From Duganella sp. SG902 (GTDB lineage: Bacteria; Pseudomonadota; Gammaproteobacteria; Burkholderiales; Burkholderiaceae_D): a stretch of DNA of 64,000 nucleotides. The notes beneath the pieces are model-generated. The model searched no databases and had not been told where the DNA came from. It was given only the letters and a program-made list of their open reading frames with translations. The DNA lies in the NCBI RefSeq assembly GCF_013376005.1, contig NZ_JABMJK010000004.1, positions 310,001 to 374,000 of the forward strand, in the 5' to 3' direction. The stretch's first letter is position 1. Each line of letters begins with the position of its first letter. The translations under genes were made by a program, and so were the position numbers. Shown piece by piece: positions 15,477 to 17,669 of the stretch.

Positions 15477-15534
15477 CGTTGTGAAAACGTCACAATAAGT
15501 TGACATTCGGACATGTCGCAGCCATCATCGATTG

Positions 15535-16592
15535 ATGATACTGGAGCGACTAATCGACGATATTTATAGCGCGGCCACGCAAGTCGGCGGCATGCGGGCG
15601 GCCATGCGCGCCGTCGGCAAGGCGGTCGGGGCGGATTCGTCGTTCTTGTTCTCGTCGCATTCGCCGGACTCGCCGGACGCCATCCTGCTGGGCGTGGACA
15701 TGGCGCAAGAACAGGTCGACCGGTTTTCCGGCCACTGGTGCCGGGAGGACATCTGGGCCATCGAAGCGGGGCGGCGACAGCTGATGCGGCGCGGCACCGT
15801 GATCATCGGCACCGAGTTGGTGTCCGAGCGCGAGCAATTCTCCAGCCGCTTCCACAACGAGTTTGGCATCGGGGCCGGCATGCACCGCATGCTGGGCAGC
15901 GTGATTGCCGACGGCGCCGGCCACGGCGGCCTGCCGTTCACCAACCTGTGCTGGTATCGGGGCGCGGGCGAGGCCGACTTCAATCCGGACGAGAAGCGGC
16001 TGTTGTGCCAAGTGCTGCCGCACCTGGAGCGGCTGCTGTCGATCCAGTTCGCGCTGCAGGCGCGCCGTTGCGGCGGTGCGGCGCTGATGCTGAAGCGTGA
16101 TGGCACCGTGCTGCATCACGACCCGCAAGCGGGGCCGATGCGCATCGTCGGGGGCAAGCTGGTGCAGTTGGGCGAGGACAGCAGCCCATCGGTTGCCGAC
16201 GCGCTGCGGATGGCCGCCAGTGGCGGGCGGTCGACATCCTGTTCCGCGAGCGCGGCGGCCACCGCCTGCGGCGGGCCGTGCTGTCGCCGTGCACGCCGGA
16301 TCAGCCGGGCTACTTTGGCGCCGGCGCCACGCCGGCCTTCGCGCTGACGTTGTACAGCCCGCCGGAGTCCGGTCCGGAGAGCGAACGGGCGCTGACGCGG
16401 CTCTACCATCTCACCGAGGCCGAGGCCCGCGTCGCGGTGGCGCTGGTCAACGGCGCCGCGCCGGCGGACATCGCGCGGCGGCACCAGGTGGCGATCAGCA
16501 CCGTGCGCAGCCAGATCCGCGCCGTGTTCGACAAATGCGGCGTCAGCAAACACGTCGACCTGGTGCAAACGCTGGCCGCGCTGCGCTATTAA
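15535..16592 (+). pseudogene. LuxR-type helix-turn-helix regulator with a frameshift
   Basis: The frame from ATG 15535 codes for a LuxR-family N-terminal region (about 230 residues, no autoinducer domain recognisable). It loses sense near 16221-16230 within a GC-rich run. The -1 frame then continues the protein (VDILFRERGGHRLRR, then YFGAGATPAFALTLYSPP). It ends with a clear LuxR HTH (LTEAEARVAVALVNGAAPADIARRHQVAIS, read as two parts about residues 295-330) and stop at 16592. One missing base in ggcgg(N)gcg restores a 353-residue protein. It is either a real recent mutation or a sequencing error. ACGTTgtgaaAACGT at 15476-15490 lies in the promoter region. Confidence 0.8.
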
Positions 16593-16594
16593 AA

Positions 16595-16686
16595 ATCCGG
16601 GGTCAGGTCCTCCATTTCTACACGAGCCCTGCAGTAGGCGCGCCTACTGCAGGGCTCGTGTAGAAATGGAGGACCTGACCCCGGAT
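16595..16686. repeat. 92-bp perfect palindrome between convergent genes
   Basis: Arms at 16595-16640 and 16641-16686 are exact reverse complements with no spacer. The outer segment reads GGGGTCAGGTCCTCC and the centre GGCGCGCC. It starts 2 nt after the LuxR-type stop and ends 5 nt before the ispB stop, so it could end transcription in both directions. Its form suggests a full REP/BIME-like unit, but no second copy occurs in this window. Confidence 0.9.
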
Positions 16687-16691
16687 GGGGG

Positions 16692-17669
16692 TTAGTGGTT
16701 GCGGTGGACCGAGAAGTGGGCCAGCTGCAGCAGCGACTCTTTGTAGACGCTGTCCGGCAGGTCGGCGATCGCGTCCGAGGCGCGCTTGGCGGCGATCACG
16801 GCCTGCTCGCGCGTGTAGTCCAGCGCGCCGCTGCTGGTGATGGCGGCCAGGATGGTGTCGAAGTGCTGCTCGTCGCCATTCTCGATGCACGAACGCACCA
16901 GCTCGCGCTGCGCGGCGCTGCCATTCTCCATCAGGTAGATCAGCGGCAGGGTCGGCTTGCCCTCGCGCAGGTCGTCGCCGACGTTCTTGCCGATCTCGCT
17001 GGCGTCGCCGGCGTAGTCGAGCACGTCGTCGATCAGCTGGAACGCGGTGCCCAGCGAGCGGCCGTACTCGCCGGCCGAGGCGATCTGCGCGTCGGTGGCG
17101 CCGGCCACCAGCGCGCCCAGCTCGGCCGCCGCCTCGAACAGCTTGGCGGTCTTGGAACGGATCACTTGCAGGTAGCGCTCCTGCGTCACGTCCGGATCGT
17201 GCATGTTCAGCAGCTGCAGCACCTCGCCCTCGGCGATCACGTTGGTGGCGTCGGACAGGATCTGCATCACGCGCATGTTGTCCAGGCCGACCATCATCTG
17301 GAACGCCCGCGAATACAGGAAGTCACCCACCAGCACCGACGCGGCGTTACCAAACAGCGCGTTGGCGGTGGCGCGCCCGCGGCGCAGCGACGATTCGTCC
17401 ACCACGTCGTCGTGCAGCAGGGTGGCGGTGTGGATGAATTCCACCACGGCGGCCAGCTCGTGGTGCGCCACGCCCCGGTAGGAATAGGCGTTGGCCACCA
17501 GCAGCACCAGCACCGGGCGGATGCGCTTGCCGCCCGCGCTGATGATGTATTCGGCAATCTGGTTGACGAGGGGGACCTCGGAATGCAGGCGTTGGCGGAT
17601 CACCGAATTGACCGCGTCCATATCGGCGGCAATGGTTTGGATGATGTTGTTTTGGGTGGCGGCAGACAA
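16692..17669 (-). CDS. ispB: Octaprenyl (polyprenyl) diphosphate synthase
   Basis: This 325-residue trans-prenyltransferase makes the long side chain of ubiquinone from IPP and FPP. Both aspartate motifs are clear: LLHDDVVDESSLRRGR (about residues 84-99) and FQLIDDVLDYAGD (about 211-223). GGKRIRP is near the N-terminus. It is divergent from rplU, the conserved arrangement in proteobacteria (ispB / rplU-rpmA-obgE). Confidence 0.96.
   Translation of the reverse strand: MSAATQNNIIQTIAADMDAVNSVIRQRLHSEVPLVNQIAEYIISAGGKRIRPVLVLLVANAYSYRGVAHHELAAVVEFIHTATLLHDDVVDESSLRRGRATANALFGNAASVLVGDFLYSRAFQMMVGLDNMRVMQILSDATNVIAEGEVLQLLNMHDPDVTQERYLQVIRSKTAKLFEAAAELGALVAGATDAQIASAGEYGRSLGTAFQLIDDVLDYAGDASEIGKNVGDDLREGKPTLPLIYLMENGSAAQRELVRSCIENGDEQHFDTILAAITSSGALDYTREQAVIAAKRASDAIADLPDSVYKESLLQLAHFSVHRNH

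Follow-up and report, generated by a model that had tools for sequence, protein, structure and literature searches.

Two convergent genes of Duganella sp. SG902 are separated by a 92-bp palindrome, and the locus raises the question of what kind of sequence this is and by what means its arms are kept alike. The genome (G000 below) comprises 6.81 Mb in 47 contigs, and the window, by which we mean the whole stretch of 64,000 nucleotides analysed, lies at C4:310001-374000. An earlier note, made from the sequence of the window, had described the palindrome as perfect, spacer-free and seated between two convergent stops. A repeat search bears this out, delimiting arms of 46 nt each at 16595-16640 and 16641-16686 that are 100% complementary with a spacer of 0 nt; stop codons at 16590-16592 (forward strand) and 16692-16694 (reverse strand) bracket the palindrome, which starts 2 nt past the stop of a LuxR/GerE-type fragment and ends 5 nt ahead of the stop of a polyprenyl synthetase gene. 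The features of the junction are given below, where the TIRYT gene is a transposase gene elsewhere in the genome and the TIRs are its inverted ends.

16278-16592, forward strand: LuxR/GerE-type C-terminal fragment (21.3 bits, Pfam cut-off 23.5), stop at 16590-16592
16595-16686, no strand: focal palindrome, 92 bp, perfect and spacer-free, from the repeat search; putative TIR dimer
16599-16624, forward strand: left end GGGGTCAGGTCCTCCATTTCTACACG, identical in type to the TIRs of the TIRYT gene
16611-16613, forward strand: 3-nt head code TCC; TCC and GCC are the two codes in the TIRYT gene's own TIRs
16625-16656, no strand: interior core, variable among copies, both halves together
16657-16682, reverse strand: right end, the left end inverted, with its code at 16668-16670
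16692-17669, reverse strand: polyprenyl synthetase (281 bits), stop at 16692-16694

As a DNA strand the palindrome is predicted to fold at -59.8 kcal/mol (shuffle mean -13.2), and with its flanks as RNA at -103.2 kcal/mol (shuffle mean -39.3), and in either case none of 200 shuffles folded as low. A scan of 16200-17000 for intrinsic terminators (a G+C-rich stem of at most 20 pairs with a loop of 3-8, then a T run) found none, Rfam families at gathering score gave 0 matches in 16300-17000, and a search of plasmids with the 92 bp at megablast sensitivity gave no match. The LuxR/GerE-type gene to the left is apparently split between two frames, ORF 15532-16347, which matches no Pfam family at 0.001, and ORF 16278-16592; this looks like a frameshift, in either a pseudogene or a sequencing error.

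The focal palindrome has many relatives in its own genome. Its end, the exact 12-mer GGGGTCAGGTCC, has 56 forward and 60 reverse occurrences, while the reversed pattern has 1 and 2. The earlier note had suggested counting copies of the arm, and inverted pairs of this end 32-62 nt apart are dispersed over at least 50 places, compared to 0 for the control. Among 50 paired copies, which were chosen by intact 12-nt ends and are accordingly biased toward well-kept examples, 37 are free of arm mismatches outside the central 6 nt, 10 are free of them altogether, and 13 show 1-9 outside the centre. Such perfect arms, which the note called rare, would be so in random DNA, yet in this genome they are not. 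One copy (C14:30663-30746) is identical to the focal palindrome over 84 nt; contigs sharing the focal 26-mer bear Duganella titles, with the addition of one record titled Rugamonas aquatica. Wider inverted pairs did not reveal a larger element: the ends at C4:60998 and C4:63976 enclose what appear from their translations to be ordinary genes rather than cargo, and the pairs at C1:461001 and C12:37310 are copies broken up by another repeat. Two copies, at L050 150-450 and L051 280-540, are interrupted by another dispersed repeat (..GCCGTCATTCCCGCGCAGGCGGGAAT.. or alike). No target-site consensus emerged beyond AAMTCC, because position -4 agrees neither between the two ends of a copy nor consistently across orthologous slots (counts below).

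These copies also bear on whether the palindrome is a fold-back artefact of assembly. A contig of D. sp. 1224 does end at such a palindrome (L153); indeed, two loci of that genome (L153 3994-4091 and L106 4584-4672) break off at palindromes, as if they were short-read contig ends. Against an artefact, the 50 copies lie at different places and have differing centres, and equivalent palindromes are found in other assemblies, including single-contig genomes, which makes this explanation very unlikely indeed.

The earlier note had also proposed a search for a RAYT gene, and a transposase of the RAYT superfamily, bearing the palindrome's ends, is indeed present in the genome. Three genes match PF01797, one of which (G000:C7:218695-219549, 285 aa, outside the window) is a Y1 transposase gene lying between inverted ends like those of the palindrome. 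Its protein, the TIRYT protein, scores 49 bits to PF01797 (Y1_Tnp) and 80.1 bits to NCBIfam REP_Tyr_transpos (NF047646), for which the cut-off is 80. Residues H67, H69 and Y126 are invariant in all 26 aligned homologues (30 were fetched); from their positions we take the two histidines to be the HuH motif and Y126 the catalytic tyrosine. At the C-terminus, HTH_28 (18.6 bits, cut-off 25) and HTH_23 (15.1 bits) both score under the Pfam cut-off, and phmmer at 0.001 returned no relative in the PDB. The TIRs of locus L250 (GGGGTCAGGTCC..) stand at -77 and +30 and are alike in 23 of 24 nt. TIR pairs of the GGGGWSAS type flank 24 of the 30 fetched TIRYT genes, while four of the other six (L266, L270, L275 and L277) are loci at which the script could not set a gene frame; the Duganella tip, GGGGTCAG, matches the same motif. 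The two further Y1 transposase genes of the genome are at C5:383296-383619 and C3:543127-543453, the latter having a stop inside the region matched by the TIRYT protein.

To which class, then, does the palindrome belong? The earlier note saw a mobile REP-type unit in head-to-head form; the dispersal and the head-to-head arrangement are upheld by the 50 pairs, but the REP-type assignment is not. A REP is a short palindrome after a tetranucleotide, mostly GTAG (PMC8266576), and a single focal arm has no stable fold (-0.3 kcal/mol, with 161 of 200 shuffles folding as well), nor does its ATC variant fold. The defining REP hairpin is therefore absent, and membership of the REPs was rejected. Di Nocera et al. 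2013 (PMC3733652) gave the name TIRYTs to RAYT-like genes with flanking TIRs, some of which have GGGGWSAS in common and many of whose TIR repeats are dimeric. Quentin et al. 2018 (PMC6006769) assigned 20 of the 26 TIRYTs of Di Nocera et al. to TnpAY1 subclass 2.1, and reported no REP-like sequences near genes of this subclass. Since the ends fit the GGGGWSAS of TIRtrons and the single arm lacks a REP hairpin, the palindrome is best read, from its sequence, as a non-autonomous TIR dimer of a TIRYT and not as a classical REPIN. The Duganella system shares with described TIRtrons (PMC3733652; subclass 2.1, PMC6006769) a RAYT-type Y1/HuH transposase, GGGGWSAS TIRs flanking the gene, and TIR repeats elsewhere in the genome, many of them dimeric (here 50 paired copies). 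Judged by the text of those papers, it differs in that its dimer arms are fused into near-perfect palindromes, spacer-free in the focal copy, that its interiors covary, and that a correspondence of code between TIR and palindrome can be traced in individual species. For the C-terminal HTH expected of subclass 2.1, the Duganella protein shows weak similarity that scores under the cut-off.

A classical REPIN, meaning a pair of REPs together with their RAYT, is an alternative. REPIN/BIME systems with a RAYT (Bertels and Rainey 2011, PMC3116915) likewise combine a Y1 transposase with a dispersed, non-autonomous inverted doublet that forms one hairpin, and the Duganella copies are doublets of this kind: inverted, folding as one hairpin, dispersed and extragenic (48 of 50 outside called genes). 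The transposase is of the same superfamily, compensatory changes are reported for REPINs too, and the string GTAG occurs within the focal arm. Yet the Duganella arms are not REPs, having no hairpin of their own, and long TIRs bearing GGGGWSAS lie on either side of the transposase gene, such that we consider a REPIN improbable. As far as these sources show, the kind of element is already known, and what is new is its fused, covarying form and the species-wise code; among the matches listed from the titles and passages of open-licence literature there was no description of this Duganella palindrome family or of rewriting in place.

The association between transposase and palindrome was examined in 60 genomes drawn from a larger group, G000 included. 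Strict pairs number at least one in 17 of the 60 genomes and at least eight in 11, the other 49 having three or fewer, and the 11 genomes with at least eight coincide with the 11 that score best for TIRYT (at least 365 bits); other TIRYT-like genes are present in all 60. In a tree of the best gene of 30 genomes (26 genes entered, four being left out because the script could not frame them), TIRYTs with the focal TIR type form one group of 12 with support of 98/98, the twelfth member being that of G051, which has two pairs. Within one genus, this link between TIRYT and copy number is confounded by the shared ancestry of the genomes.

A finer correspondence is found in the head of the TIR, where nt 13-15 vary among the TIRs of TIRYT genes and likewise among palindromes. 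Palindromes carry the 3-nt TIR code of their own genome in most genomes checked, with clear exceptions. The code of the genome's own TIR is found in 99/100 arms in G000, 39/42 in G001 (21 of its 31 copies) and 40/42 in flavida (G059); from listings read by hand, it is found in 28/28 arms in G043, which from identical copies appears to be radicis and whose copies were listed by an open pattern with no fixed head code, and in 38/46 in G028 (23 of 31 copies listed), while all 60 arms in G039 start with that genome's GGC. The fit is poor in G036 (17/36) and, again read by hand, in G012 (6/16); the single copy read in G042, at ispB, has ACC whereas the G042 TIR has ACT. The codes ATC, CTC and CCC (of G001, G036 and G012) occur in 0/100 G000 arms; TCC, found in 90/100, belongs to the codes of radicis and flavida as well. 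In D. sp. 1224, radicis and rivi the copies were retrieved by their TCC heads, so that TCC there is no evidence, and G014, G022 and the remaining G042 copies stand outside the comparison. A second family, GGGGTCAGNNCCGACAWTCGGACA, behaves similarly, its two free letters being those of the genome's own TIR in 46/46 lines in G030, 26/26 in G033, 9/9 in G020, 5/5 in G017, 4/4 in G011 and 16/18 in G007; G028 has 26 lines of this family, and none was found in G000, G001 or G038, the TIR of the last being outside the pattern anyway.

With gene calls from a home-made caller, 48 copies had both neighbours called, of which 21 are convergent, 22 tandem and 5 divergent, and a further 2 copies lie inside a called gene; by comparison, convergent junctions account for 11 of the 68 remaining gaps at those loci and for 11 of 51 gaps in the window. 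A stop codon lies within 15 nt of 36 of the 48 copies, 12 of the 21 convergent copies have both stops within 15 nt, and the upstream stop is no more than 15 nt away in 16 of the 22 tandem copies, where 3.1 are expected and 0 of 10000 random placements gave as many. Some copies lie far from any stop. REPs are likewise found just past stop codons (PMC3733652), and those no more than 15 nt from a stop have been reported to act as a translation brake (Liang 2015, cited in PMC12306157). At one slot, L235, in six genomes (loci L235, L154, L208, L118, L353 and L345), the right end of the palindrome, CCCCGGAGT, stands a few nt 5' of the ATG of the next gene and, judged by its sequence, could serve as the Shine-Dalgarno sequence of that gene; where relatives lack the palindrome, most of them have a different short inverted repeat at this site.

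Palindrome arms are unlike between copies and matching within each copy. Across 26 copies with a length of 84 nt, of which 24 are distinct, pairing holds in 99.1% of 960 cells; ten pairs show double changes, amounting to 65 cells, compared to 1 single-sided and 9 unpaired cells, although cells count copies and not events. None of 500 shuffles reached the covariation score, while one of five covariation measures, further pair types, was not above shuffles (147/500). In 21 copies with decayed interiors, selected as such by those interiors, arm mismatches number 26/294 in the head (nt 13-26) and 108/264 in the interior. Outside the ends, position -4 is matched on the two sides in 24 of 50 copies, compared to 23.4 expected; the concerted change therefore stops at the border of the element. 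In orthologous slots, that position is the same at only 67 of 102 ends.

Rather than a copying mechanism, selection on the hairpin itself, whether of RNA or of DNA, might preserve perfect arms; the hairpin would then act as a 3' mRNA stabilizer, as a brake on translation no more than 15 nt from the stop, or as a terminator. The concentration of copies, and of both stops of convergent copies, within 15 nt agrees with this, as do the very stable fold and the presence of other palindrome families at the same junctions in other species. Selection of this kind is nevertheless a rather doubtful explanation, given the scarcity of intermediates beside 65 double changes, the copies remote from any stop, and the focal junction without a U-run terminator. 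For REPINs, Bertels and Rainey 2011 (PMC3116915) described compensatory changes, and template switching can yield double changes (Monttinen and Loytynoja 2022, PMC8794818). Maintenance of hairpins by template switching predicts perfect stems and multi-base compensatory changes; it is described for RNA genes, and for a mobile palindrome in Duganella it is a proposal.

Taken together, the dispersed copies, the TIRYT gene with the same ends, the match between TIRs and palindromes in most genomes checked, the covarying arms and the placement at stop codons lead us to conclude that the palindrome is very probably a non-autonomous miniature element, formed of two inverted copies of a TIRYT TIR fused head to head. 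The TIRYT would recognise the 26-nt heads in single-stranded DNA, in which the whole element would form one hairpin, and would copy or move that element. From the pattern of change, complementarity of the arms may be maintained by template switching, with one arm serving as template for the other in the course of synthesis in a hairpin or at a fork. Copies would survive at the 3' ends of genes since they are harmless there, and may act as 3' hairpins of mRNAs or as bidirectional terminators of a non-intrinsic type.

Related species share palindrome-bearing junctions, or slots. Among 156 copies from 8 genomes, 53 pairs have both flanks orthologous; these pairs occupy 32 slots and are not independent, and their flanks have a mean identity of 86.9%. 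Ten of 21 G001 copies sit in a slot that is also filled in G000, as judged by both flanks for 8 and by one flank for 2. At the same slot, a related species usually has a palindrome with another interior; the focal slot in D. sp. 1224, for example, has another perfect palindrome. In 25 slot pairs both copies lack arm mismatches outside the central 6 nt, and the interiors of 16 of these are less than 0.8 identical. Overall, shared-slot interiors have a mean identity of 0.684, compared to 0.625 for 2100 unrelated pairs (Mann-Whitney p 0.0014); 46 of 53 fall inside the 95% range of the control, and 6 of 53 are at 0.9 or above. Because shared-slot interiors are more alike than random pairs, some slots are inherited.

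Much of this sharing can be accounted for by insertions that recur at favoured junctions. At the ispB 3' end (the best 30 loci), the focal family is found in G000, G036, G028 and G042, another family in G007, and neither in most others; at two convergent junctions (30 and 14 loci), species differ in having other families, terminators or nothing. These differences, and the nearness of shared-slot interiors to random pairs, favour independent insertions at preferred tail-to-tail stop junctions without any rewriting in place, while the slots common to G001 and G000, and interiors that still exceed random similarity, speak against them. We give this explanation an even chance.

Two slots bear on the alternative, rewriting in place. 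Of the 14 close genomes and D. sp. 1224 in which slot L235 was surveyed, 8 have no palindrome there; one is present in G001, G043, G000 (where another repeat interrupts it), G055, G059, G028 and D. sp. 1224. Every occupant carries the same rare, asymmetric mark (one arm reads AATTG); a mismatch at this position occurs in 7 of 150 copies of at least 70 nt, 4 of the 7 in slot L235. The heads read ATC/ATC in G001, TCC/TCC in G043, CCC/CCC in G059 and GTC/GCC in G028, fully or partly in step with the TIR of each genome; in G055, where the best TIRYT match is only 41% identical, the heads disagree (CAC/CCC). A mark common to all occupied genomes read, with a head code following the genome, is a further point against independent insertion. 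In slot L064 the heads are TCC/GCC in G000, ATC/GTC in G001 and GTC/GCC in G028 (C30:296744, assigned to the slot by coordinates beside the matched flank); agreement with the TIR holds for the left head in each of these genomes, and for the right head in G000 only. The sequences of slots L235 and L064 suggest copy-to-copy conversion proceeding one arm at a time, and selection for TIRYT binding would look alike. That the TIRYT, or recombination triggered by it, rewrites existing palindromes in place is a tentative idea which we think unlikely on present evidence. In G001, a further palindrome family, GGGGTCAATCCTCCCAAAGCTACACG (L298 and L322), has an interior resembling that of the focal family and other heads, which suggests exchangeable modules.

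The palindromes of Duganella link the poorly studied TIRYT class to a large set of dispersed repeats, through a readable 3-nt code that is common to transposase ends and palindromes in most genomes checked. If rewriting in place were true, single-stranded copies would overwrite the heads and interiors of copies at fixed gene junctions, and the whole palindrome set of a genome would keep pace with the ends of its transposase as those ends change. Duganella, with its many species, its shared slots and empty sites, and its genomes without a close transposase, is a testing ground, in which the spread of palindromes, the perfection of their arms, and whether a transposase keeps its copies uniform would become testable.
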